Shown here: piece after piece, positions 1 through 15,764 of the stretch | Layout of the letters: each line of letters begins with the position of its first letter | Position numbering within the stretch: the first letter of the stretch is position 1 | IMG/VR virus record: IMGVR_UViG_3300010367_000087 | Span: 1 to 24,453 of that record | Reading direction: 5' to 3' (one strand) | Origin: a virus | DNA length: 24,453 nucleotides | Notes under the pieces: model-generated | What the model saw: the letters and a program-made list of their open reading frames with translations, nothing else | Told to the model about the DNA's origin: nothing | Databases searched by the model: none | Made by a program: the position numbers and the translations under genes

Positions 1-159
1 CCGCTGAAGTTCACGGAATCCACAAGGGGCGAAAGATATCTTCGCCAGCGCCTTGACGAATGGCTGGCGTCTCTCGATCCAAACAAGCAGGATGCCGCCC
101 CGAAGCGGAAATTCGGGGAGCGGCTCTATGGTGGTCAAAGTGAAGCTGGAAGGGCTTAA
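1..159 (+). CDS. Excisionase/AlpA-like DNA-binding protein, 3' end only
   Basis: An open frame runs from the window edge to a TAA at 157-159 and reads as 52 residues of a protein C-terminus (key run RYLRQRLDEWLASLD, then a basic tail). The Arg-rich helix followed by DEWL is the usual ending of small helix-turn-helix excisionase/AlpA-like proteins that precede integrases in rhizobial prophages. It overlaps the integrase start by 32 nt, as expected for a translationally coupled xis-int pair. The N-terminal HTH is outside the window, so the family call is inference from context and style. Confidence 0.55.
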   Translation, partial: PLKFTESTRGERYLRQRLDEWLASLDPNKQDAAPKRKFGERLYGGQSEAGRA

Positions 160-1198
160 CGTCATCAAGGCGCGCGGGAAGTGGTACGTCTATGTCCGCG
201 CCACCAAGGAGAAATTGATCGGAGGCTTCGATGGAACGCGGGCCGATCTCGAAAAGCGCATGGCGATGCCAGACTTCATCGGTGTCTACAATGGCCGCCG
301 GAAGCTGACGGAAAAGCGGACATACGCTGACGGTACGCTCGGAGCCCTCGTCTACTGGTTCGAAAACGATTGCCCGAAATATCAGACGCTCGCCGACGCT
401 ACGAAGAAGGACTATACCGACGCCTTCGGCTGGCTGCGGCCGGAGTTCGATTATCCCCTCGACGACATAGAGCAGGCCGATATCTACGACATCCGCGATC
501 GATGCGCCAAAGAGAAATGGCCGCGGTTCGCTGACCAGATGGTCGCTGCGCTGTCATCGATGTTTAGCCAGGCCGTCAAGCGCCGCAAGATGCGCGCCAA
601 CCCCGCCAAGGGGCTCGACAAGGCCCACACGTCAGATCCCAACGCCAATCGGGAATGGTTCGCTCAGGAATGGGCGTATGTGCGCGACAATGCGCCTCGA
701 TACCTCCTCACCCCGATGATCATCGCCAGATACGCCGGTTACCGCGGGCAGACGCTCGTCAAGCTCCGCTGGCCCGACTACGGCCCTCACCCGCAGCACG
801 GTTGGAAATGTTTCCGTAAGGTGGCGAGGAAGAATCAGGAAAACACGATGGTTCCTGCCGTCGAGGAGTTGCAGGAATATATCGACAAGCTGGACAAGAC
901 TGCCTTGGAGATTTGCACCCGCCAGGACGGCACGCCTTGGGAGGACGAGAAGCAGATGCAGACAGCGGTCAGCCACTATCTGCGCGATCTGGAGCGTGAC
1001 GGGAAGATTGGCGCGGGGACCACGCTGCACGGCCTGCGAACGACCTATGCTGCCGACCTTAGACGGGCGGGTGTCGAGATCGGCGATGTCGCCGCTGCGC
1101 TTGGTGACCGGTCAGAGCGGATGGGCGCTCACTATACCCGGCACGTCGAGAATGAAAGCAAGGTGGTCCGTGCCTTCAACAGCAAAAAGAAGCGCTGA
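128..1198 (+). CDS. int: Tyrosine recombinase / phage integrase
   Basis: Site-specific recombinase that would integrate and excise the phage at attP/attB. I use the ATG at 128 (356 aa): GGGGAG lies 7 nt upstream, and the extra upstream codons from 53 look non-coding. The N-terminal part (about 1-60) looks like the arm-binding region, followed by a SAM-like core-binding domain (about 75-170) and the catalytic domain. Catalytic residues visible are the first Arg in AGYRGQTLVKLRW, Lys in the RKVARK beta-hairpin, H301-x-x-R304 (HGLR) and nucleophile Tyr336 (AHYTRH). The usual LGH is LGD here (D327), a substitution I believe occurs in other phage integrases. The gene ends 2 nt before the first arm-type repeat of the putative attP, and it overlaps an excisionase-like gene at its start. 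Confidence 0.95.
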   Translation: MVVKVKLEGLNVIKARGKWYVYVRATKEKLIGGFDGTRADLEKRMAMPDFIGVYNGRRKLTEKRTYADGTLGALVYWFENDCPKYQTLADATKKDYTDAFGWLRPEFDYPLDDIEQADIYDIRDRCAKEKWPRFADQMVAALSSMFSQAVKRRKMRANPAKGLDKAHTSDPNANREWFAQEWAYVRDNAPRYLLTPMIIARYAGYRGQTLVKLRWPDYGPHPQHGWKCFRKVARKNQENTMVPAVEELQEYIDKLDKTALEICTRQDGTPWEDEKQMQTAVSHYLRDLERDGKIGAGTTLHGLRTTYAADLRRAGVEIGDVAAALGDRSERMGAHYTRHVENESKVVRAFNSKKKR

Positions 1199-1994: not shown

Positions 1995-2819
1995 GTGATA
2001 CGAATTTCGATCCCCTGGGTTATCGACGTCGTTGCGGCGGTGAACGGCCTTGATAACTTGACAGTAGGAGCTGAAAGAGCTGCTGTCTGGGGCCATGCGT
2101 ACAGCGCATCCTCCCAACTCGATGCGTTGATCAGTCAGAGCCTCTACAGTGACTCCCTGGTGGCGTGCCGAGCGGCCGCGGACAAACTTCGAACCCAGCT
2201 CGGAACCATTATTGCGCCGCCTGTTGAGGGCGAAGTATCACCATTCCACGTTTGGAATGTAAAGGAGGCAAGCAGAGAGTTTAAGACTATCTTCCTAGCG
2301 GAACTCGCAACGCTTCCAGCATTCTTCGTCACTTCGAAACGGCCATTGGACCGCGAATCCCTGATTTCAGCTGGCGAATCGCTGATGCCTGAAGAGCTCC
2401 TCAGGAAGGTGCCTGAGGCAATTCGCGACGCACAGGAAGCCGCGCTCTGCTTGGCGTTCGACCGAGCGACCGCTGCAGCATTTCATCTCTTTCGAACTCT
2501 CGAGGCTGTTGTAAGAGCGTACCATCGAACTGTTTGCCAAGGCAGCGCTCCACCAAAGCAGAGAAATCTCGGTGTTTACATACGGGTTTTGAAGGACGCT
2601 GGAGCGAACCCGAAAGTAATCGCTGCCCTCACTCAGCTTAAAGACCTCCACAGAAATCCAATTTCCCACCCTGAGGCTCTGATAACACCTGATGAGGCAA
2701 TAGGTATTTACGGAGTAGTTCGAAGCGCGGTGGCCGCTATGCTAGCGGAGCTACCTGAGCTGCCACTAAACACGACTTTTCCAACGTCTTCTTTGGAGAC
2801 GACGCTTGACCGCATCTGA
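1995..2819 (+). CDS. HEPN-like protein, unknown function
   Basis: 274 aa from a GTG at 1995, preceded by AGAGG at 1981-1985; no other Met occurs before about residue 117. The protein is mostly alpha-helical. A helical half with the segment FDRATAAAFHLFRTLEAVVRA is followed by the motif HRNPISHPE. Within it R220-x4-H225 fits the Rx4-6H signature of HEPN-fold proteins, many of which are RNases in toxin-antitoxin and anti-phage systems; DUF4145-type HEPN proteins look similar. No partner antitoxin is adjacent. Base composition looks lower in GC than the structural genes. It could be a lysogen-expressed defence or exclusion gene, but enzymatic activity is inference from one motif and predicted helices. 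Its end lies 15 bp from the convergent ligase gene. Confidence 0.65.
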   Translation: MIRISIPWVIDVVAAVNGLDNLTVGAERAAVWGHAYSASSQLDALISQSLYSDSLVACRAAADKLRTQLGTIIAPPVEGEVSPFHVWNVKEASREFKTIFLAELATLPAFFVTSKRPLDRESLISAGESLMPEELLRKVPEAIRDAQEAALCLAFDRATAAAFHLFRTLEAVVRAYHRTVCQGSAPPKQRNLGVYIRVLKDAGANPKVIAALTQLKDLHRNPISHPEALITPDEAIGIYGVVRSAVAAMLAELPELPLNTTFPTSSLETTLDRI

Positions 2820-2834
2820 GCACCGGTTGCGTGT

Positions 2835-3875
2835 TCATTCAACGCTGTAAATTCCGGCGTTATCCTGCTCTTCGCGCAGCCCCTTATAGGACGCGTGCCG
2901 AAGCTTGCCGTCATGCGTCCAAGCTCGATACTCGATCTCGGCAACAAGCTCCGGCCGGACGAACACCGCATTCCGCTTCCTCCCGGTGTCAACCGCAGGC
3001 TTGCTGATGATCAGCTTGTCCATCTGCTCGCGAAGCTCGAAGGCGGATCGTGCATTAAAGCCAGTCCCCACTCCCCCGACATAGACGAGATCTTCTCCCT
3101 TGCGCGCGGCGAGCAGCAGCCGCCCGATGCCCCCGAACGATGCCGTCGACTTCTCATATCCGACGATCGCGAAGCCGTCGCTCTGGACACATTTGATCTT
3201 CAGCCACTCGCCGCCGCGACCGCTGCGATAGGTGCTCCTTCGATCCTTCGCGATGATCCCTTCCAAGCCGTGCTCGCAGGCGATGCGCAACAGCACGTCC
3301 CCATCCGCCTCGATCTCCTCGGACAATCGGATGGCCTCCTCCCCGCCGGCCGGCACCAGCCCATCGAGGAGATGCCGCCGCGCGGTGAGTTCGGTTCCCG
3401 TAAGGTCCCGTCCGTCGAAATAGAGCAGGTCGAACGCCATGAGAACCGAATCCCGGGACGCCCTCTTGCCACCGCGGCCGCCGAGCGATTGCTGAAGCCT
3501 GCCAAAGTCCGACCGGCCACGCTCGTCGAAGACGACGGCCTCGCCATCGAGAATGGCGGTGGCTACAGGAAGGCGGCGTGCTTCGGCGGCGATCGCGGGG
3601 AAACGATCCGTCCAGTCATGGCCGCCGCGCGTCAGGATGCGCACGCGGGACGGCTCGATGTGAACCGCCAGGCGATAGCCATCCCATTTCACCTCGAAGG
3701 CCCATTGCGGGCCTTTGGGCGGTTTCGGCTTGAGGAGAGCGAGACAGGGATCGAGGCGATCCGGCATCGGATCGAGGGGAAGGTTTGGCTGCGCGGGATT
3801 TCGCGGCTTGCGCGGCCGGGATCGAACCGGCTTATCATCCTGCAGGAGCAGCTTTGGTTTCGGCGGCTTTGTCAT
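2835..3875 (-). CDS. ATP-dependent DNA ligase, LigD ligase-domain type
   Basis: 346-aa stand-alone ligase that would seal DNA nicks using ATP. It has a short basic Pro-rich N-terminus (1-35) and then the nucleotidyltransferase domain with motif I EVKWDGYR (adenylated Lys63). Motif III is LDGEAVVFD (about 109-117), IIIa is MAFDLLYFDG, motif IV is EGIIAKD and motif V is EWLKIKC. A C-terminal OB-fold carries GFAIVGY and the YVGGVGTGF run. It is the ligase module of bacterial NHEJ LigD proteins without polymerase or phosphoesterase domains. Start is the ATG at 3875, with a weak GGGATGG upstream. It lies opposite to its neighbours in the accessory region. No Ku gene is visible. It could be phage cargo or a captured host gene. 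Confidence 0.93.
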   Translation of the reverse strand: MTKPPKPKLLLQDDKPVRSRPRKPRNPAQPNLPLDPMPDRLDPCLALLKPKPPKGPQWAFEVKWDGYRLAVHIEPSRVRILTRGGHDWTDRFPAIAAEARRLPVATAILDGEAVVFDERGRSDFGRLQQSLGGRGGKRASRDSVLMAFDLLYFDGRDLTGTELTARRHLLDGLVPAGGEEAIRLSEEIEADGDVLLRIACEHGLEGIIAKDRRSTYRSGRGGEWLKIKCVQSDGFAIVGYEKSTASFGGIGRLLLAARKGEDLVYVGGVGTGFNARSAFELREQMDKLIISKPAVDTGRKRNAVFVRPELVAEIEYRAWTHDGKLRHASYKGLREEQDNAGIYSVE

Positions 3876-6028: not shown

Positions 6029-6209
6029 TGCTCAATTCTCCAATTGCTTTGTTGGTGGCGGCCGTCAGATCGGCGGACTCCAGTTCGCGCCCATGCTTCT
6101 CAGCCGCAGGGAGCCATAGGAGCGCGTTCAGCGTTCCGTAGATGGCGAAGGTCAGCAGAGCGCCGCAAATCGCTCCTACGCCGATTTTGAGAATGTCTCC
6201 GATGCTCAT
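5919..6209 (-). CDS. Inner-membrane spanin-like protein (Rz-like)
   Basis: 96 aa with an N-terminal membrane segment (about 9-32, GVGAICGALLTFAIYG), then a helical periplasmic region (EKHGRELESADLTAATNKAIGEL) and a Cys-containing tail. This N-in, one-span, helical layout is that of i-spanins. The start overlaps the endolysin stop by 4 nt, and its 3' third contains the lipoprotein gene in a different frame. Endolysin-Rz-Rz1 in that order is the standard lysis module of Gram-negative phages. Confidence 0.7.
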   Translation of the reverse strand: MSIGDILKIGVGAICGALLTFAIYGTLNALLWLPAAEKHGRELESADLTAATNKAIGELSNAADQARVRRRLCSERGGMYHYDTGECVEAKPVGND

Positions 6210-7246
6210 CGCCGCTCACCCGATTGAAAAGCTTCCACACCCTTCTTCTCGCCGTGCCGCGCCACAAGGTAGACACCGCCGGCAACCGCCACCACCGCGC
6301 CCATCCAGACGTAGCCAGGCACGTCGGCCGCATAATCCTTGACGTTGTCGACATAGCCTCGAGCAATCCCGAGGTTGGCAACGATACCGTCGAAGAAGGC
6401 GCCGACACCGGAGAATGCACCGGCAATCACGGCGCCGATCTTCACCAGCCAGTTGGAACGGACTTCCGGGACCGCCTGGCGAACCGTCTGGGGCGATGCA
6501 TCATTGCGAGCGAGCTTCCGAGCCGGCGCGGTGTCCAGCGCGTTGAGCAGGTCCTGGTCGATGAAGTCGCCGGGCGGCAAGTCGTTCTCCTGCCGGAAGA
6601 CAGTAATGGCTCCGCGCGTCATCTTGCCCATCTCGCCATCGAAAGAACCGTCGGCGCGGCGGCTGCCAACTTCGGTGTAACCCTTCTCGAAGAGCTTGCG
6701 CTGAACGATCTCGACCGTGGTCTTGTCTGTCTTCGTTTCGGGGATAGAGATGAGTGCAGCGGGCTTAGGAGGGGCTGCCGGCGCTTCGGAGAGGAACTGC
6801 ACGCGCTCAGCCTTCCGGCGCTTCGTGAGTCCGTCTATAGCGACAAGCTTGCCGTTGACGTTTCCCTTGTTCCAGACGAGGAACTGGTTGGCCGCAGCGC
6901 CGAAGTCTCGCGCGTTCAGTTTCTTCAGAAGCGTGGACTTCGCGAACTTCGTGCCGCCGATGTTGAAGACCAGCGATACGAGAGCGTCGAACTGGCTTTG
7001 ATTGAGCGGAACCTTGACGGCCTTGTTGATCGAAGCCTCGACGTCGGCCAGGTCGCGCGTAAGGATCTGATCGGACTCTGCCGCCGAGATCCGCATACCC
7101 TTCTTGACCACCGGGGGGCCTGCGGCCGTGGTGTGTCCAACTCCGATTGTCAGAATGCCGACGCTATCGAGATAGGCAATCAGCTTATTGCCTTCGCGTT
7201 GCGCAATAGCCTTGCGGCCCGCAGCGCTGGTGCGCATCGAGGTCAT
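6206..7246 (-). CDS. Endolysin: T4-type lysozyme with PG-binding domain and membrane tail
   Basis: 346-aa muramidase that would cut the glycan of host peptidoglycan. The GH24 catalytic triad fits E-8aa-D-5aa-T exactly: E18, D27, T33 (REG...LD...LTIGVGHT). The lysozyme domain spans about 5-155, followed by a Pro/Ala linker and a peptidoglycan_binding_1 domain (about 176-237, DGSFDGEMGKMT). Two hydrophobic segments close the protein (about 268-291 and 312-329). I use the ATG at 7246, with GGAG 6 nt upstream; the frame extends 78 codons further but that part lacks domain features and reaches into the divergent promoter region. First gene of the leftward lysis operon. Confidence 0.93.
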   Translation of the reverse strand: MTSMRTSAAGRKAIAQREGNKLIAYLDSVGILTIGVGHTTAAGPPVVKKGMRISAAESDQILTRDLADVEASINKAVKVPLNQSQFDALVSLVFNIGGTKFAKSTLLKKLNARDFGAAANQFLVWNKGNVNGKLVAIDGLTKRRKAERVQFLSEAPAAPPKPAALISIPETKTDKTTVEIVQRKLFEKGYTEVGSRRADGSFDGEMGKMTRGAITVFRQENDLPPGDFIDQDLLNALDTAPARKLARNDASPQTVRQAVPEVRSNWLVKIGAVIAGAFSGVGAFFDGIVANLGIARGYVDNVKDYAADVPGYVWMGAVVAVAGGVYLVARHGEKKGVEAFQSGERR

Positions 7247-7403: not shown

Positions 7404-8726
7404 TTGACAGAAAGCCGCGACGTCGCCATCCGGGTGACAGGTCTCTCCAAATCGTTCCCGATGTTCGGCTCCAACGCCAAACGACTTGCGCACTATGCTT
7501 TACCGGGGAACCTAGGCGCGCCAGCAAAATTCGTTGCACTAAATGATGTGTCGTTCGAAGTGCCGCGGGGCACCACTTTCGGCGTCATGGGGCGCAACGG
7601 CAGTGGCAAAAGCACCCTTCTTCAAGTTATTGCCGGCATTCTCCAACCAAATGCAGGCCACATCGAAGTTGCAGGGCGCGTAGCAGCACTCCTTGAACTA
7701 GGGTCAGGGTTCAATCCCGAATTCACCGGCATCGAGAACATTCGCCTAAATGCTGCACTGCTCGGTCTTTCGAAAAAAGAGATAGATGCGAAACTCGACG
7801 CCATTCTTGACTTCGCGGATATCGGCGATCACGTCCACCACCCGGTGAAAACCTACTCCAGCGGTATGATGGTGCGGCTTGCTTTTGCCGTTCAGGTCGC
7901 GATCGACCCGGACATCCTAATTGTTGATGAAGCACTGGCTGTCGGCGATGCGGCATTCCAACTCAAATGTTTTCGTCGGATCGAGCTTCTCAAGAACCGA
8001 GGGACGACAATCTTGTTCGTTTCCCATTCCACCGAACAGATTCGATCAGCTTGCGACAAGGCTCTTGTTCTCGAAGCGGGGCAGATAATCTTTCAGGGCG
8101 ACGTGCGAAGCGCGACCGTCAAATACCTCGAAACGATGTTCCCAGAAGAGCATGCCGGATCATTTAGTGAGGCTACCCACGAGCAACGGGTGGAACACCC
8201 TCCTGTGCTCGACGAGAATGGTGACATCGTCATAAATGACATCTCTCAGTTCTCTACCAAGACGTTTGGCGCGGGAGGAGCCTCCCTCACCCGTCTCCGC
8301 ATTTCGGGAGTCGATCACAACGGGGCATTTGCAGGCGGCAACAAAATGACCGCGATAGCCGATTTTCAATGGGATCGTGAGGCTGTCGCGCAAGTCATGA
8401 AGAAGGACGGAGTTGAACCCAATATCACCCTCGGCATCACTCTTTCAAATGCGAAGGGTCTGTACATTTTTGGAATGAACGGCTTCGATAAAGAGCTTCG
8501 CGTCGACTGCCTAAATACCGACAAGGCCACATTCAAGTTCGACTTCGAAATGCCATCACTTGCTGATGATGAATATCATCTGAGTGTTGCCATCGCGCTC
8601 GGCAATTTGGCACAACATGTTCAACTCCGATGGTACGATGCGTTCCTCCCGGTCCATTGTAAGCCACGCGGCACTGCCGCCGGACTGTTTCATGTCGATT
8701 GCACCGTAGAACTGGTCAGCGCTTGA
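7404..8726 (+). CDS. Wzt-like O-antigen ABC transporter ATPase with C-terminal glycan-binding domain
   Basis: 440 aa from the TTG at 7404 (GAAAGG at 7389-7394); earlier codons overlap the endolysin region and do not look like ABC protein. ATPase features: Walker A GRNGSGKST (63-71, Lys69), signature YSSGM (151-155), Walker B ILIVDE (171-176) and switch His208. The segment VAALLELGSGFNPEFTGIENI is typical of the Wzt/RfbE/TagH polysaccharide-export subfamily. Residues about 270-440 form a beta-rich domain matching the place and size of Wzt_C, which in known systems reads the capped end of the O-antigen chain. No Wzm-type permease gene is present, so it would need a host permease. Composition is poorer in GC than the tail genes (29 of 60 at 8401-8460 against 41 of 60 at 14041-14100). 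Its end overlaps the convergent glycosyltransferase by 11 bp. Confidence 0.92.
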   Translation: MTESRDVAIRVTGLSKSFPMFGSNAKRLAHYALPGNLGAPAKFVALNDVSFEVPRGTTFGVMGRNGSGKSTLLQVIAGILQPNAGHIEVAGRVAALLELGSGFNPEFTGIENIRLNAALLGLSKKEIDAKLDAILDFADIGDHVHHPVKTYSSGMMVRLAFAVQVAIDPDILIVDEALAVGDAAFQLKCFRRIELLKNRGTTILFVSHSTEQIRSACDKALVLEAGQIIFQGDVRSATVKYLETMFPEEHAGSFSEATHEQRVEHPPVLDENGDIVINDISQFSTKTFGAGGASLTRLRISGVDHNGAFAGGNKMTAIADFQWDREAVAQVMKKDGVEPNITLGITLSNAKGLYIFGMNGFDKELRVDCLNTDKATFKFDFEMPSLADDEYHLSVAIALGNLAQHVQLRWYDAFLPVHCKPRGTAAGLFHVDCTVELVSA

Positions 8727-9717
8727 GTGAGCGCACCAGGCTTCGTGCCTTTGCGTAGCGTTGATACGCGAGATTCAGAAAGTGCATCTTCGCAGCGTAA
8801 GACTTCGACCGAAACTCGGTACTGATGTAGCCATAGAGCGTGCTGTGCGGATAGATATGCCGCGCGATAGGGTAGAAGTATCGTCCGAGCGGTAGTTCAT
8901 CCCACCGATACTCAAACAGCACCTCCCAATGCCTGTGCCACTCAGGGACGGTCGCGAATGCCTGCGCGTAATATCCGTATAGCCTAGAACGGCCGAAGCG
9001 GATCCACCATCGCTTCGCTGCATCCTCTGCCCTGATCTTGGCCATATAGTACATAAGCTGCGTCATGATCTCGTCAGGGTCGAGGGATTTCAGCTCATTC
9101 CCGGTGTGTGTCCTGATCGCGCACGTTTCGATGTCAATTCCGTGTACGATATAGTCACGCGATATGCGGCGCCATAAGTCGGTGTCCTCAAACCTTGTCT
9201 GAGCTATATCGAACTTACCGACGGCCGCGACGATCGGCGCGCGGACCATTACCGTTGGCAAAGCGATTGTTACGGGACGGAAGAACGCAACCTTGTAGTA
9301 AATATCCCCCGACACCGTCGCATCATAACGACCAGGCAACTTGTTGCCGGCGTGATCGATGTGCATTGCAGCGGTATAGGTCATCGCGACCTTCGGGTTC
9401 TCCCGCATGTACTTAACCTGCATCTCCAGCTTGCCGGGCAAATACAGGTCATCGCTATCGTTGAATGCGATGAACTCTCCTGTGGCGAATGCCAGAGCCA
9501 TATTCCGCGCGCTCGATCGCCCATGGTTGACACTCGGATACACTCGAAGGCGCTTGTCCTTGATCGTGGATAAGACAGTCAGCGTGTCATCCGTAGACCC
9601 GTCATCCACAACCAAAACCTCAATGTCCGTGAACGACTGATCCAGGACGCTTTGAACCGATTCACGGATAAGATCCGCGCGGTTATAGGTGGGAATGATG
9701 ACACTGACTGCTGGCAT
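8716..9717 (-). CDS. Family 2 (GT-A) glycosyltransferase
   Basis: 333-aa transferase of a nucleotide-sugar onto a glycan acceptor. The GT-A domain is clear: VSVIIPTYNRADLI at the N-terminus, VVDDGSTDD (36-44), NHGRSSARN (64-72), metal-binding DSD (87-89, in FNDSDDLY) and ED (177-178, in RFEDTDLW) at the catalytic-base position. The C-terminal 100 residues are aromatic- and Arg-rich with no clear membrane span, so it is cytoplasmic or peripheral. The ATG at 9717 has a near-perfect AGGAGGGG. It sits between the Wzt-like and methyltransferase genes but on the opposite strand, the same strand as the late operon. Donor sugar cannot be read from sequence. Confidence 0.92.
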   Translation of the reverse strand: MPAVSVIIPTYNRADLIRESVQSVLDQSFTDIEVLVVDDGSTDDTLTVLSTIKDKRLRVYPSVNHGRSSARNMALAFATGEFIAFNDSDDLYLPGKLEMQVKYMRENPKVAMTYTAAMHIDHAGNKLPGRYDATVSGDIYYKVAFFRPVTIALPTVMVRAPIVAAVGKFDIAQTRFEDTDLWRRISRDYIVHGIDIETCAIRTHTGNELKSLDPDEIMTQLMYYMAKIRAEDAAKRWWIRFGRSRLYGYYAQAFATVPEWHRHWEVLFEYRWDELPLGRYFYPIARHIYPHSTLYGYISTEFRSKSYAAKMHFLNLAYQRYAKARSLVRSLKR

Positions 9718-9812
9718 TTCGCCCCTCCTACGGTTGCAGCGTTACCGATAAAGGATTGCATGCGGCGGTCAATATCCTTATGCATCCCCTCATATTCACC
9801 TTCGAGGCTCCG

Positions 9813-10607
9813 ATGACAGTTACCGCGCCAGCAAAGCAGATCAATGTCAGCCGTGATGCGTTTCTCAGCACAGCTGCCAAAGCTATCAAGACAACCGATG
9901 TGGTTCTCGATGTTGGATGCGGCATTCGTCCGATGAACTACTTTCGGCCCAAGCTCCATTTCATGGTCGAGCCTTGGAAGGAATACGCGGACATCCTTGC
10001 CTACCGCTATCGCAACGACAAAAGCGTAATGATCTTCCGTCAGGGCGCGCTCGAAGCCCTGCAAAGCCTAGGCGACAAGTCGGTCGACAGCATTTTCCTC
10101 CTCGACGTCATAGAGCACATCACAAAAGAGATAGGTCTTGCGGTTGTTGCCGAATGCGAACGCGTAGCCCGCGAGCAGATCGTTATCTTCACTCCCCTCG
10201 GGTTCATGCCTCAGCATATGGAAGACGGCCAGAAGGACGGGTGGGGCCTGTCTGGTGCATCCGTTCAGGAGCATCTGTCCGGATGGACGCCTGACGACTT
10301 CGGGTCCGAATGGACTCACTACATTTGCCCAGATTTTCACCAACACGATTTCAAATCAGACACGCTCCAAGACGCGTTCGGAGCGTTCTTCGCTATCCGG
10401 GACTTCGATCACAAACCGGCAGAAACCGCAGCGCCGGCGCCGGAGCTTCAAGAAGCCCTGCCGACGGAACTCGAAGCGGGTCAACTGCGCGGAGAAGTGG
10501 CGGCACTCACAGCGAATGCCACCAACCTTAAGATAGCGCTCAACGGACTGCTGAACTCCAGATCGGTCAAGACAATCAGGGCCATCAGATCGATCGGCAA
10601 TAAGTGA
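9813..10607 (+). CDS. SAM-dependent methyltransferase of polysaccharide-biosynthesis type
   Basis: 264 aa from the ATG at 9813 (GAGG at 9804-9807); upstream TTG and ATG codons at 9756 and 9780 lack a good ribosome binding site. Class I fold: motif I VVLDVGCG (30-37), acidic E53 after beta-2, and LDVIEH (97-102). Residues about 205-264 form an Ala/Leu-rich coiled coil (LRGEVAALTANATNLKIAL) ending in LNSRSVKTIRAIRSIG. That tail resembles the LxSRSWR-type endings common on O-antigen and capsule enzymes. In WbdD-type enzymes a methyltransferase caps the chain end and a coiled coil sets chain length; here the coil is short. Substrate is inferred from context with the Wzt-like gene. It ends 2 nt from the convergent tailspike gene. 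Confidence 0.85.
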   Translation: MTVTAPAKQINVSRDAFLSTAAKAIKTTDVVLDVGCGIRPMNYFRPKLHFMVEPWKEYADILAYRYRNDKSVMIFRQGALEALQSLGDKSVDSIFLLDVIEHITKEIGLAVVAECERVAREQIVIFTPLGFMPQHMEDGQKDGWGLSGASVQEHLSGWTPDDFGSEWTHYICPDFHQHDFKSDTLQDAFGAFFAIRDFDHKPAETAAPAPELQEALPTELEAGQLRGEVAALTANATNLKIALNGLLNSRSVKTIRAIRSIGNK

Positions 10608-10609
10608 CG

Positions 10610-11644
10610 TCAGATCACAATATTGAACGACGTTCGGTTTGCATCAGCGCCCAGGCTTCCAGAGGTATCGGTCATGCCGGCTATTGCGTATGCCGCGACG
10701 TAATTATCCGCGGTGTTGCATCGCTTGGTGGTGCCGTTCAGCACGATACCGTAGTTAGACCCCGTGACACCACCACCGTCTCCGCCGTTGATGGTGTTTT
10801 TCTCGATGTGGCAATTATAGCTGTTGAATACGGTCAACTGCGACTGAACTCGCCCGCTAGAGAAGTTTCCGATGTAGGCCGGATGCTCCATCCAATTGCG
10901 TTGGATAATCGCCTGGCCGTGACCATCAAGGAGGATTTGCCCACCAAGTGCGGTGAAGTTGTTATCCTCAATGACGGTCTGACGAGCCCCAGCAGATATG
11001 CTAGACAAATCCAGAGCGATGCCGGGGCCATTGTTGACGACATTTTTCAAAAACTTGTTGCTGTCCCCTATCTTGTCGCCGTGGATACCGGCCCAAGATC
11101 CTGGCGAAAGCTGGCAGCCTTCCAGAAGGCCCGTTGCAAATCCCGGACCCTCGGCGCTGTTATCGAGGTAAATCGCTGACGTCCCGAAGCGATGGATATC
11201 TTCAAGGTCGTTGAAGAGGTTGAAAATTCGCCACTTGCCGAAGTAGCCTGATGATCCGGTGATCTGAATGTGAACCCCGTGAGTGCCGCCATTATTCACC
11301 TGATGGTTAAGCGTGAAATCGCCAATGACTGTGCCAAAGTTGGTATCTGATACAGTGAGGTGGAGGCCAGCAGTGGTTGATATAGAAGTAAGGCGAGTTT
11401 TTATCCCGCAGCCGACGAGGTAAACCGGACCTTCGTATTCCACCTTGTCGATGGTGTAGCTCTTGGCCGGAATCAACACCGGAGCCCCAGCCGCCGCAGT
11501 GAGCGCTGCGCCCAGTGCCGCCGCATTGACGGAACCAGACGCTGCCGTATCGAAGCCGTAACTCTCCGGGTTGATGAAGCCGCTGCCAGCGCCGCCTCCA
11601 CCGCCGCCCACGAGAAGCGCATTCGGAATCTTTGTCGTGGTCAT
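10610..11644 (-). CDS. Tailspike-like right-handed beta-helix protein
   Basis: 344 aa. A short N-terminal attachment segment with a poly-Gly run (VGGGGGGAGSG) and the pectate_lyase_3-like entry GFINPESYGFD leads to many Asn/Gly-rich short repeats with hydrophobic spacing (IEKNTING, VIEDNNFTALGG). That is the texture of a parallel beta-helix. Such phage proteins trimerise at the tail tip and bind or cleave host surface polysaccharide. I cannot assign catalytic residues, so depolymerase activity is unproven. It is the last gene of the leftward tail operon and lies directly beside the polysaccharide-modification genes. AAGG about 8 nt upstream supports the ATG at 11644. Confidence 0.8.
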   Translation of the reverse strand: MTTTKIPNALLVGGGGGGAGSGFINPESYGFDTAASGSVNAAALGAALTAAAGAPVLIPAKSYTIDKVEYEGPVYLVGCGIKTRLTSISTTAGLHLTVSDTNFGTVIGDFTLNHQVNNGGTHGVHIQITGSSGYFGKWRIFNLFNDLEDIHRFGTSAIYLDNSAEGPGFATGLLEGCQLSPGSWAGIHGDKIGDSNKFLKNVVNNGPGIALDLSSISAGARQTVIEDNNFTALGGQILLDGHGQAIIQRNWMEHPAYIGNFSSGRVQSQLTVFNSYNCHIEKNTINGGDGGGVTGSNYGIVLNGTTKRCNTADNYVAAYAIAGMTDTSGSLGADANRTSFNIVI

Positions 11645-11647
11645 GTG

Positions 11648-13135
11648 CTAAGCCTTTATTTCTTCAACAACGAGGGTTGCAGCAGATGCCCCGCCGAATA
11701 GCGCCGTTCCAACGGCACCGTTGAATGCAAGCGAATTTGGAGAATTATTGTGCCCAACTCGCACCGTGAAGGTGATTGGCGATGTGCCGCCCGCAACGAT
11801 GTCGGTTTCAATCACAAGCGGGAACGCCTGCAGCGACGTCGCAATTTGACCGTACGTTGTGGCGATCGCGTCGTTCTGCCCGACCTTGTGGATTGATGCC
11901 ACGGCTAATCCGTTCGCGGCGTTGATCGACGCCTGCCCCCTAAATCGAAGTCGCAAAACGCTCGTCGACTTCTGCGGAGTAATCGTCACCGTAAGGATCT
12001 GCGTCCCTTCGGTTATCTGAGGAATGGTGTTATCGACCGGGATAAGAGACGAGATACTCGTGTTTGCGGTATAAGGTGTCGCCGCAACGCTTTGAACTAC
12101 CGAGCCAGCAGGCAGGAAGAGGTCTCGGAGTTCCGCCGCGCTGATCTCCTCCGCGTCACCCGCGCCCGCCGTCTTCCTACCAAGTAGCCGGAGCGTTGCG
12201 CTGATATTCTGCATCTTGGCATAGGTGACGGAGTCATCCGCCAACTTCGCGGTGATAATGCTGGCGTCGGCGGGAGTGCCGACAGCGATCCGGAAGCCCA
12301 TCTCCGCTTCAAAAGCCACGCCGTTCGGCGGCGCCTCGCTAAAGCGAAGTGTCGGAACGGTGCTGACATAGACGAGCGAGTAAGATGAGTGCAACTGAGA
12401 TGCACCATTCATGTTCACCCGAATGTTGTTGGCGCTCCCAGGGTCGACCGTGAGCGTGAAATCTGTCGTTGATCCATTGCCTGTGAATGGGTTGATGACC
12501 ACGTCATTGCGCGCGAGCGCTGCGTAGCCGGCGGCTGCGGCTGCCGCAGCTTCGGCGGCTGCTTGGATGGCAACGCTGGCCTGGTCGGTCACCAGCCGGA
12601 ACGTCGATCCGATTTTGACGCCCATCACGATACCTACGAGCCCTTGATCTACCGGATCATTCCCGCTGTTCGTCTTGATCGTCAGCGGTGCCGATCCGTT
12701 AAAGGAAACGGTTACGGGGCCAGGGCCATTGGGCTCGAAGACATTGAACCAGATCAGCGCAGATTCAGAAATTGGTATGGAGCTTGTCGCCTGAATGGCG
12801 TTTGGCGTGCCAGCACCGACGTCGTTCGCTACGATGAACGAATATGGAAGATCAGCGACGCGAGTCCAAACACCGGATCCCGCCGCGCCATTCTTTTGAT
12901 AAATTCCGTTGTAGGCGGTCGTTGGATCGGAAATGACCCAAGCCATTGTCTTATCCGACTTGGTCAGGTCAAGGTACAGGAAAGCTCTGGTTGTATAAAC
13001 GAAACCACCATTCGAGCTTATTGCCGACAGAAAGGACTCAATCCAGGTGCCCCATGCACGGATGCGGCTCTTTTCCGGCTCATAGGCCTCAGAGGCAGGG
13101 CCGTCAGCCCAGATTACATTTGCAGTTTCCGCCAT
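11648..13135 (-). CDS. Tail fibre protein
   Basis: 495 aa from the ATG at 13135 (GGAG 6 nt upstream); the open frame extends upstream but there it overlaps the J-like gene. The N-terminal part (ANVIWADGPASEAYEPEKSRIRAWGTWIESFLSAI) is of the type found on rhizobial phage fibres that dock on the tail tip. A long Ala-rich stretch (AIQAAAEAAAAAAAGYAALARN) is probably a trimeric coiled coil. The rest is Thr/Ser/Val-rich beta sequence. Placed between the tip protein and the tailspike, it probably forms a fibre or an adaptor for the tailspike. Confidence 0.8.
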   Translation of the reverse strand: MAETANVIWADGPASEAYEPEKSRIRAWGTWIESFLSAISSNGGFVYTTRAFLYLDLTKSDKTMAWVISDPTTAYNGIYQKNGAAGSGVWTRVADLPYSFIVANDVGAGTPNAIQATSSIPISESALIWFNVFEPNGPGPVTVSFNGSAPLTIKTNSGNDPVDQGLVGIVMGVKIGSTFRLVTDQASVAIQAAAEAAAAAAAGYAALARNDVVINPFTGNGSTTDFTLTVDPGSANNIRVNMNGASQLHSSYSLVYVSTVPTLRFSEAPPNGVAFEAEMGFRIAVGTPADASIITAKLADDSVTYAKMQNISATLRLLGRKTAGAGDAEEISAAELRDLFLPAGSVVQSVAATPYTANTSISSLIPVDNTIPQITEGTQILTVTITPQKSTSVLRLRFRGQASINAANGLAVASIHKVGQNDAIATTYGQIATSLQAFPLVIETDIVAGGTSPITFTVRVGHNNSPNSLAFNGAVGTALFGGASAATLVVEEIKA

Positions 13136-13149
13136 GATAGCTCCGTTGG

Positions 13150-15351
13150 TTAGACAGTGACCGTCGCCGATGCCCGGGCTGCAGATGGAATACCGGAGCC
13201 ATTTTCGGCGCCGCACCAGTATTTCCAAGTGCCCGCGCCCGGTGGGTCGGTGATGGTGATGACCTGGTTTGCCACTACATTGCGTGTGGCGATCTGCGTT
13301 GCCGCGGCGTAGGTTTGCCCAGTCGTGCCACGCTTGAAAATCAGCACCTTGGTGTTGTCGTTCGCTGCTTGGGCGCTGATGGTGACAGTACCGGAAGCAT
13401 TGACGGCGGTCATATTGATCGGCGCCCCGGGAGCGACCGGATCAACGGTAGACGTGACGTTCGCCGTGATCGACCACGGGCCATAGTCGCCGTCGGAAGC
13501 GATGAACGCCACCTGGATGTCATGAAGCTTGTTCGACGGCACGATGTTGGTGCTCATGTCGATAAAGCCGCCGGCCGGAACCGGATTCGGGAACCGCTGC
13601 TCTATCCACGGCCCTGGCGAGCCAGAGCCTGCATCTGCAAGCCGATACCTGACAACCGGAATAAGGGTGTTGTCGTCGGGATCGATGATGACCACCCTGA
13701 TATAGACGCTGTCGCCATTTGGCCGCGCCTGCACCAGATTGATCACCGGCGTCAGAATTCCGCCCGGGTCGGTCTTGGGAGGCGTTGACGGCATCTGGCC
13801 TTCATCTGTCGCCGGGTTCCAGTCGTCGATGTTGTCGGGGTGCTTCATGATGTCCATGACGAACCCGCCCTGAAGCAGCGACAGCACGGACTTTCTGTTC
13901 TCGACGATCTTGCCGTCCAGCTTCGGCAGCATATTGGGCGTCACAAGCCGCACCCACCGGCTGTAGACCGAGTTGATCCCGGACAGCCTCACATTGAGTT
14001 GGCCGGTCACCTTCTCCTGAAGGCGCAACCAGTCGCGCTTGCCCAGGCGCCTTGCCTGCCGCCACTGCTGCACCCACTGATAATTCGCCTCCTGCGCCAG
14101 GACCCGGCCGGAGACCAGCTGCGCCGCCGTGTCCTCGAAAAAGTCGGTATCGGACGTGGCATATCCGATCTCAGGAAAGTTGAACTTCGGGATCAGGCGA
14201 TTGCACTCATCCTCGAAGAGCACATCATATTCGACCTGGTGCCCGACAATATCGGCGTCAGTCAGGGTCGTGATGTACTTGCCGCGGAACTTGCCGACGA
14301 TGAAGAGAAGCGCCCCGTCGCCGCGCTCGCATATCCAGCCATCGCATGAAGCTAGGATCGCATTGGTGGCGGCCTTAGGGTCGTTCTCCGTCGTGTCGAT
14401 GCCATTGCATTCATAGCGGCGCTCGAAGCCGCCGCCTGCGAGCGGCACGAACTCATCGCAGACGTCCGCTTCTTCCTGCCACATATCAAGCACAGGCAGG
14501 ATCGCCCGCCGGTAGTTTCGTCTGTGACCGAACTCATTGAAGCACTGATGCCATGCCATGATAACCGCGGAATTGCGGGTCCACTGCCATGTGGCCGGGT
14601 TCTCAGGATCCTGTAACGGGTCGCGAAAATCCCAGCAAAGAGCGAGATCCGCCTCGACGGAGAGTTGGGGCACCCCATACGGGAACGTCTTGTTCTGACG
14701 CTCCGCCTTGTCGCTCGTGGCTATCATTGCGATCGATGCCTGGCCATCTCCTCGGTGATTATTGGTCCAGACACCTGCAGCCGACAAAGCGGCGACTATG
14801 CCGGCATAGGACGTTTCCGGGACAAGCCCGAGCCGACTAGCGATCTCCACATTGGTTCGGTAGTTGGTCCCAGTGACGACGATACCGTTGCTGTCAAGCG
14901 TTACTTCATCATCATGGAGCCAGTAGCGATTGATCGACTTTATGCGGTGGCCCGCGATAGCCTGTACGGCGTAAAGATGCTTTCCAACAGCTTCCCACAG
15001 CATGTACGCGCCGGCCACACGGTTTCGTCCAACGCCCCATTGGCGATAGGGGATTGACTGCACCTTCGGGACTTTGCCGTCTTCCGGTTTCGGAGGCTTC
15101 GGGGCGAGAAGCGCCTGAATACCGATTGCAATGGCAGTTGTCGCGATCGCAGCAGCACCGGCGCCGAGCAAAGCAGCCGTGCTCGCGGAGAAACCGATAG
15201 ACGTGAACAGAGCCGTGAATAGCGGCGTGAAGATAGGATCGTAAAGCGCCGTGCTGCCACGCAAAAAGCGATCTTGCCATTCTCGGTGGTGCGCATCGAA
15301 ATAGTGCTCCGCTTCACTCGGGACGCTCTCATACGTCGCCTTCAGGCTCAT
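13150..15351 (-). CDS. Tail tip / host-specificity protein, lambda J-like
   Basis: 733 aa from the ATG at 15351, whose ATGA overlaps the preceding stop; the GTG at 15366 has no ribosome binding site. The N-terminus contains an Ala-rich hydrophobic segment (about 54-84) of the kind seen in lambda I/J-type tip proteins. The sequence IPYRQWGVGRNRVAGAYMLWEA follows, with beta-rich hub domains and FNIII-like modules at the C-terminus (DPVAPGAPINMTAVNASG). It would form the distal tail hub and contribute to receptor contact. Its length is shorter than lambda J (1132 aa). Confidence 0.85.
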   Translation of the reverse strand: MSLKATYESVPSEAEHYFDAHHREWQDRFLRGSTALYDPIFTPLFTALFTSIGFSASTAALLGAGAAAIATTAIAIGIQALLAPKPPKPEDGKVPKVQSIPYRQWGVGRNRVAGAYMLWEAVGKHLYAVQAIAGHRIKSINRYWLHDDEVTLDSNGIVVTGTNYRTNVEIASRLGLVPETSYAGIVAALSAAGVWTNNHRGDGQASIAMIATSDKAERQNKTFPYGVPQLSVEADLALCWDFRDPLQDPENPATWQWTRNSAVIMAWHQCFNEFGHRRNYRRAILPVLDMWQEEADVCDEFVPLAGGGFERRYECNGIDTTENDPKAATNAILASCDGWICERGDGALLFIVGKFRGKYITTLTDADIVGHQVEYDVLFEDECNRLIPKFNFPEIGYATSDTDFFEDTAAQLVSGRVLAQEANYQWVQQWRQARRLGKRDWLRLQEKVTGQLNVRLSGINSVYSRWVRLVTPNMLPKLDGKIVENRKSVLSLLQGGFVMDIMKHPDNIDDWNPATDEGQMPSTPPKTDPGGILTPVINLVQARPNGDSVYIRVVIIDPDDNTLIPVVRYRLADAGSGSPGPWIEQRFPNPVPAGGFIDMSTNIVPSNKLHDIQVAFIASDGDYGPWSITANVTSTVDPVAPGAPINMTAVNASGTVTISAQAANDNTKVLIFKRGTTGQTYAAATQIATRNVVANQVITITDPPGAGTWKYWCGAENGSGIPSAARASATVTV

Positions 15352-15764
15352 GAGGGCAATCTCCACGCGCAGATGAATTCGGCCGGTGTCGCGCGGATGC
15401 CGGCGGGATGAATGCAGGCCCAGAGCGGGCCGAAACGGATGGCGCCGATATGCGTCTCGACCTGGTCAGCCGCCGTCTCTCCGGTCATGGCTTTAATCAA
15501 GCCGATATCGCCGGTCTCAGGATGTTGGACGCGCTTTGCGCCGATCTTGACCAAGTGCCTATCCATGAACGCAAGTTCGCCTCCATGGCTGTCGACGATG
15601 GCGTGGGCTTCGGCCTGCGTCCGATACGTCCCGCGAAGATCCTCCGCCGGATCGATTCCGATGCACTTCAGTGCCCAGGACGCCGGGAAGGTCATACAAT
15701 CGTCGCCGCCCACCCCGCCCCACCTGAACCGGTGCGGCAGCGCAAGAAAATGATGGATATCCAT
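15348..15764 (-). CDS. NlpC/P60-like tail tip protein
   Basis: 138 aa. The motif GGVGGDDCMTFPASWAL puts Cys23 where NlpC/P60-type peptidases have their nucleophile. A later ETHIGAIRFG stretch may supply the His, though I am not sure of it. This compact form (DUF6950-like) is common just before J-type genes in siphoviruses and gene transfer agents, where it would cut peptide cross-links during DNA entry. Coupled to the J-like gene by a 4-nt overlap. Confidence 0.75.
   Translation of the reverse strand: MDIHHFLALPHRFRWGGVGGDDCMTFPASWALKCIGIDPAEDLRGTYRTQAEAHAIVDSHGGELAFMDRHLVKIGAKRVQHPETGDIGLIKAMTGETAADQVETHIGAIRFGPLWACIHPAGIRATPAEFICAWRLPS

Follow-up and report, generated by a model that had tools for sequence, protein, structure and literature searches.

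The DNA examined here is a 24,453-base virus record (IMGVR_UViG_3300010367_000087), which was analysed over its whole length and is referred to as the window. It carries a putative surface-modification cassette next to a tailspike gene. The cassette consists of three genes: a Wzt-type ATP-binding cassette (ABC) ATPase (wzt; 7404..8726, plus strand, 440 aa; ABC_tran and Wzt_C), a GT2 glycosyltransferase (8716..9717, minus strand, 333 aa; Glycos_transf_2, 120.7 bits) and an S-adenosylmethionine-dependent methyltransferase (9813..10607, plus strand, 264 aa; Methyltransf_11), the presumed cap writer. On one side it is bordered by the endolysin (6206..7246, minus strand; Phage_lysozyme, 140 bits), and on the other by the tailspike (10610..11644, minus strand, 344 aa), which is 90% identical to the spike of two related records, L316 and L236. 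The frames of wzt, GT2 and the methyltransferase are complete, their motifs are intact and their database matches are far beyond chance. The wzt gene starts with TTG and has a GAAAGG site upstream, whereas AGGAGG precedes the ATG start of GT2. The true start of the methyltransferase is the ATG at 9813, and the 95-bp gap (9718..9812) between the divergent GT2 and methyltransferase starts holds both ribosome-binding sites. The true start of the endolysin lies near 7246, the L140 homologue beginning at the equivalent Met.

An earlier reading of this DNA, made from the sequence only, had described a complete Wzt-type ATPase with a C-terminal beta domain and no permease beside it, and both statements were upheld. 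The protein is laid out as a nucleotide-binding domain (NBD, residues ~1–250) and a C-terminal cap-binding-type domain (CTD, ~275–440). Pfam returned ABC_tran with 79 bits and, for residues 288–430 of the region suggested to be Wzt_C, that very family with 36.5 bits, above its cut-off of 30.4. Walker A (GRNGSGKST), Walker B (LIVDE), the signature and the H-loop (VSH) are intact. The AlphaFold (AF2) model had a mean pLDDT of 89, and its best PDB matches were full-length Aquifex aeolicus Wzt across both domains, including the O-antigen-bound form (Foldseek TM 0.77 by target length against the full-length protein). By profile and predicted structure, the C-terminal domain is a true Wzt_C and the ATPase a Wzt of the cap-reader type, which would bind a capped glycan and drive its export. 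In Aquifex Wzt, Trp362 is the lid of the pocket for the 3-O-methyl cap (PMC9445017). A Trp occupies this position in the phage Wzt, in its three closest bacterial relatives (loci L170, L002 and L003) and in every other aligned Wzt, the alignment there being weak (11.7 bits in the CTD). Since this Trp is universal among the aligned proteins, it backs Wzt_C function and not the identity of the cap. An extra CTD helix near residues 324–336 is common to the phage protein and these three relatives and was not seen in other aligned Wzts, for example that of L038. The phage Wzt therefore resembles the cap-dependent Wzm-Wzt transporters of A. aeolicus, E. coli O8/O9a and Raoultella terrigena in its NBD, cap-binding CTD and methyl-pocket Trp, but it is phage-borne, has no adjoining Wzm and belongs to the CTD subtype with the extra helix. 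No ABC2_membrane permease was found in the 24.4-kb record, which is a fragment without head, terminase and early genes, so that this absence holds for the window only.

The methyltransferase has an invariant DxGCGI motif, and its catalytic domain is 58–62% identical to proteins adjoining wzt in L170, L002 and L003. The enzyme would add a cap to the chain end. It had been described as a methyltransferase with a coiled-coil tail; the enzyme class stood, while the tail amounts to a predicted C-terminal helix at residues 219–262, poorly conserved and drawn from a poor model (pLDDT 46, 3 sequences). Its 264 aa contained no kinase family in Pfam and further family searches. The likeness to WbdD, the chain terminator of E. 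coli O9a, consists of a methyltransferase encoded with Wzt and the predicted C-terminal helical tail. In contrast to WbdD, the phage enzyme has no kinase domain, a short tail and no evidence of length control. We also considered whether it is a broken piece of a two-domain enzyme and rejected this, as an intact single-domain form exists in L170.

Comparison with bacterial wzt loci provided the main new support for a functional connection between the two proteins. The phage NBD is about equally similar (50–60%) to scores of bacterial Wzts. Its identity to the Wzts of L170, L002 and L003 is 57–60%, and that of the CTD 35–40%; the CTD gave 127, 126 and 114 bits, respectively, against these three, with the next best match at 69 bits. 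Among the 91 loci with enough downstream sequence, a homologue of the phage methyltransferase adjoined wzt in all three with a high CTD score and in none of the other 88 (Fisher p 8e-6). L170 was found through its methyltransferase, and without it the counts are 2/2 versus 0/88 (~2.5e-4). Because the CTD subtype co-occurs with this methyltransferase family, we suggest that the phage Wzt and methyltransferase are a linked pair of cap reader and cap writer. The gene order in the three loci is wecB-wzm-wzt-methyltransferase, followed in two of them (L002 and L170) by a GT2 that is 42–44% identical to the phage GT2. The alphaproteobacterial locus L170 (genome G060) encodes the single-domain methyltransferase found in the phage, and L002 and L003 the two-domain form. 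The phage cassette thus shares with these loci the wzt subtype, the methyltransferase family and, for L170 and L002, the neighbouring GT2. However, the bacteria have wzm and a single direction of transcription, whereas the phage has wzt (+), GT2 (-) and methyltransferase (+), with no wzm. The proposal that a cap and its reader are carried together was strengthened by this linkage, but GT2 cannot simply be counted with the two export genes.

The relationship of GT2 to the tailspike was clarified by related phages. A natural INTERMEDIATE is offered by the L236/L316 phage, whose J-like protein is a different one (29% identical) and whose tail fibre, spike and GT2 are 67%, 90% and 75% identical to those of the window. 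DNA homology between the window and L236 reaches the spike stop and restarts at window position 9780, so that the window has, at this locus, precisely two additional genes: the methyltransferase, between spike and GT2, and wzt, on the far side of GT2. Across the 67-kb L236 record, neither of the two was detected. Because L236 has spike and GT2 but neither of the other two, GT2 is, judged from these alignments, tied to the spike, and wzt and the methyltransferase were gained or lost as a pair around it. In addition, GT2 is oriented like the tailspike and the late tail genes. A GT2 is therefore present as previously stated, but its assignment to an export switch is qualified by its orientation and by its occurrence with the spike and without the pair in L236. 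A more distant spike, that of L317 (44% identical), had no trace of wzt, methyltransferase or GT2 nearby. The window tailspike itself gave no Pfam match and its L317 relative a weak Beta_helix match (E 0.0065); the tailspike call holds, and the beta-helix fold claimed for it is likely on the strength of this relative. We also observed that fibre, spike and GT2 move jointly between phages whose J-like proteins are 29% identical, as a module of receptor recognition and receptor modification.

The position of the cassette, between tail fibre and lysis genes, proved to be a slot for surface-modifying genes beside the tailspike. In 11 of 19 related phages sampled, with open reading frames (ORFs) picked by length and not at random, it holds other surface-glycan enzymes: Acyl_transf_3 (L085, L112, L121, L138 and, twice, L140), MBOAT with AlgX (L113), a PMT_2-type membrane transferase (L084), GT2/GT1 with GSCFA (L128), sialyltransferase families (L130), GT2 with Capsule_synth (L134) and RgpF (L117). 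Like most slot genes of relatives, wzt and the methyltransferase are oriented against the tail operon. The GC content at third codon positions (GC3) of the cassette is 0.57–0.67, compared to 0.72–0.81 for most phage core genes, which fits acquisition. Of 50 related records searched, only two contained an ABC ATPase, in each case no more than ~0.6 kb from a contig end and not at the slot. The window is akin to phiLM21-like and RHph_TM3_3_3 prophages in its tail and head-tail genes and its J-like protein (63–89% identical), but those records carry other enzymes, and no Wzt, at this position.

Several of these slots were of interest in themselves. L130 (15773–19463; the same in L153) encodes two multi-domain glycosyltransferases with sialyltransferase-family domains, CST-I + GT8 and GT29 + GT1, behind the tail genes; sialic-acid-type transfer from a Rhizobium phage would, to our knowledge, be unusual. 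In L113 (14239–19687), four genes opposite to the tail genes, among them two MBOAT and an AlgX-like SGNH protein, resemble an alginate-type acetylation system. L140 (14718–18891) has two different OafA-like acyltransferases (Acyl_transf_3 + SGNH) on opposite strands of one slot, and L102 (14724–16178, minus strand) a radical-SAM/SPASM protein.

The kin of the record are rhizobial phages and proviruses. Its J-like protein, a central tail fibre (13150..15366, minus strand; PHROG tail fiber, E 1e-170), shares 89% identity with its counterpart in Rhizobium phage RHph_TM3_3_3 and 63% with the one in Sinorhizobium phage phiLM21, and RHph_TM3_3_3 aligns over 44% of the window with 81% DNA identity. 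Based on this protein identity and DNA alignment, we infer that the host is Rhizobium. The presence of a tyrosine integrase (53..1198, plus strand; Phage_integrase in Pfam and PHROG integrase) indicates that the phage is temperate. The presumed host genus was sampled via the ligase gene of the window (76% ligase identity), and the sampled genus is very probably Rhizobium. A strong Wzt-like match was present in 97 of its 120 genomes, with wzm directly upstream of wzt in all 15 loci inspected, in agreement with the expectation of a host with a Wzm system. Two Wzt proteins of this genus were tested and both have Wzt_C, and two proteins behind wzt in the inspected Rhizobium-like loci carry methyltransferase domains. 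In R. tropici CIAT 899, wzm-wzt is a reported O-antigen transporter (PMC3557214). The Wzts of the sampled genomes differ from the phage CTD subtype (best 49 bits), and the phage methyltransferase was missing from plasmids and phage records as well as from 148 genomes of the genus. Since wzm is common in this genus, and the CTD subtype and methyltransferase were not seen there, a permease would be available to the phage while its reader/writer pair appears foreign.

We consider it reasonably probable, on the basis of gene content and homology, that the three genes are a cassette for lysogenic conversion, placed in the surface-modification slot of a Rhizobium prophage, with the Wzt exporting a newly capped chain via the host Wzm. 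In a lysogen, GT2 would add or alter the terminal sugar of the chain, and the methyltransferase would methylate that chain end, which constitutes the cap. The phage Wzt, with its generic NBD, would then displace the host Wzt on the host Wzm and chains with the phage cap would be exported, so that the lipopolysaccharide (LPS) of the lysogen, or another ABC-exported glycan, would carry a different non-reducing end and might also differ in length. Phages with this spike would then adsorb less well to the lysogen. The pairing of the phage Wzt with the host Wzm, the chemistry of the cap and the escape from the phage's own tailspike are deduced from sequence relationships. A stronger form of this proposal could well apply, though we would stop short of calling it probable: the phage may swap the export licence, its matched cap writer and cap-reading ATPase taking over the host permease so that host-made chains leave only with the phage cap, with the pair exchanged as a unit, by gain or loss, around a glycosyltransferase linked to the tailspike.

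Several observations weigh against this interpretation. The main tension is the orientation of GT2, which runs with the late tail genes; in L236, moreover, GT2 is found without the pair, and this enzyme may also function during lytic growth, or on its own. With ~45 residues, the predicted helical tail of the methyltransferase is short for a chain-length ruler, and the identity of the NBD to host-genus Wzts (~48–55%) is not proof of binding to the host Wzm. A promoter scan, which covered the 95-bp gap, gave no sigma-70 consensus match above chance, for a consensus that may not suit the host. Finally, since the window is a fragment, a phage wzm may lie elsewhere.

Two other explanations are unlikely to about the same degree. 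According to the first, the phage Wzt occupies the host Wzm and cannot read host caps, which would result in less O-antigen and hence less receptor, and the methyltransferase may divert chains from the host cap. Such interference would be consistent with a generic NBD joined to a cap-binding domain foreign to the sampled host genus, and with the general rule that a mismatched cap-binding domain fails to export (PMC9445017). However, it leaves unexplained why a cognate methyltransferase, an intact GT2 and both sets of intact active sites have been kept. According to the second, which we find equally doubtful, conversion is due to GT2 alone, or GT2 acts late and modifies the surface so as to keep progeny off debris, and wzt and the methyltransferase are passengers or serve fine-tuning. 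The retention of spike and GT2 without the pair in L236 and the shared direction of GT2 and the tail genes would agree with this, but the two remaining genes are intact, precisely inserted around GT2 and correspond to a cognate pair of bacteria, and random passengers would rarely match.

It is less probable still that the phage brings a complete transporter, with wzm in a part of the genome beyond this fragment. Many relatives are ~40–66 kb long, which leaves room for such a gene, but wzm is immediately upstream of wzt in all three kin loci, where the window has the endolysin region, and the rarity of ABC ATPases in related records, with none at the slot, also speaks against it. Least probable of all is that the trio is neutral or decaying cargo, or that misassembly placed a piece of host DNA in the record. 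This would fit a trio seen in one record only, but all frames and motifs are intact, the flanking genes are all of phage origin, and the DNA homology to another phage extends through the spike and picks up again at GT2. The presence of host DNA was rejected on the same grounds, as phage homology flanks the cassette and covers spike and GT2.

We searched for comparable genes in other phages, as the sequence-only reading had proposed for Wzt-like genes without Wzm. Single-sequence scans of viral contigs gave no relatives of Wzt or the methyltransferase. A profile scan of viral contigs for Wzt returned, among the matches listed, a single full-length one, L226, which was rejected as a phage Wzt because it represents a bacterial cluster for rhamnose O-antigen that includes wzm and lies next to a provirus. 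Wzt-like genes also occur in five unverified, unannotated ‘phage’ records (OQ572406, OR848236, MT836085, OR846623 and MT835502). In four of them a wzm-like gene immediately precedes the Wzt-like gene, and the fifth (Pseudomonas phage Y4) has the appearance of a bacterial glycan cluster; these records are probably bacterial contamination. None of the examined matches from viral and phage collections was an orphan-Wzt phage comparable to the window. Titles and abstracts of the open-licence papers retrieved contained no report of a phage-borne Wzt, and papers on phiLM21-like and LM21 prophages retrieved by keyword mentioned, in the parts seen, only other LPS genes.

O-antigen conversion by phages is well established, and known serotype-converting phages alter subunits or acetylation (gtrABC of P22/SfX type, oac). 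The window resembles these systems, including the oac acetyltransferases and the O-antigen polymerase replacement of D3, in being from a temperate phage with glycan-modifying genes beside tail and lysis genes, for which receptor alteration is expected; here, however, an export ATPase and its presumed cap enzyme are carried instead. In comparison to gtrABC, the sole counterpart in the window is GT2, which is partially similar to GtrB-like PHROGs, and no GtrA flippase or GtrC-like gene was identified between the lysis gene and the tail. A phage-acquired polymerase, Wzy-beta, changes the O-antigen linkage (PMC4815439). The gene content of the cassette suggests a new way for a phage to change the host coat, acting on export. 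If this is true, export via the chain-end cap reader would be a control point distinct from decoration or polymerisation of the O-antigen unit, and Wzt would be exchangeable between systems in nature. Phages would then partly control O-antigen changes in symbiotic rhizobia, for whose nodulation this glycan is important. The matching of cap-reader and cap-writer specificities could readily be tested with the cassette, and the related prophages, with their various surface-modifying cassettes at a single site next to the tailspike, amount to a natural library.

In the remainder of the window, the integrase lies near one end and the head-tail and tail genes are on the minus strand. The tail fibre (11648..13228, minus strand; PHROG tail fiber, E 1e-74) follows the tailspike, and its true start is probably the ATG near 13141. 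Between the integrase and the ligase, a 274-aa ORF of low GC3 (0.54; 1995–2819, plus strand) had neither a Pfam nor an NCBIfam match. The ligase (2835–3875, minus strand) is a stand-alone DNA ligase of the non-homologous end joining (NHEJ) type (LigD ligase domain, 327 bits), whose DNA is up to 89% identical to R. leguminosarum plasmids. It recurs in related phages, and an NHEJ-type DNA ligase is known from phiLM21 (PMC12429752).

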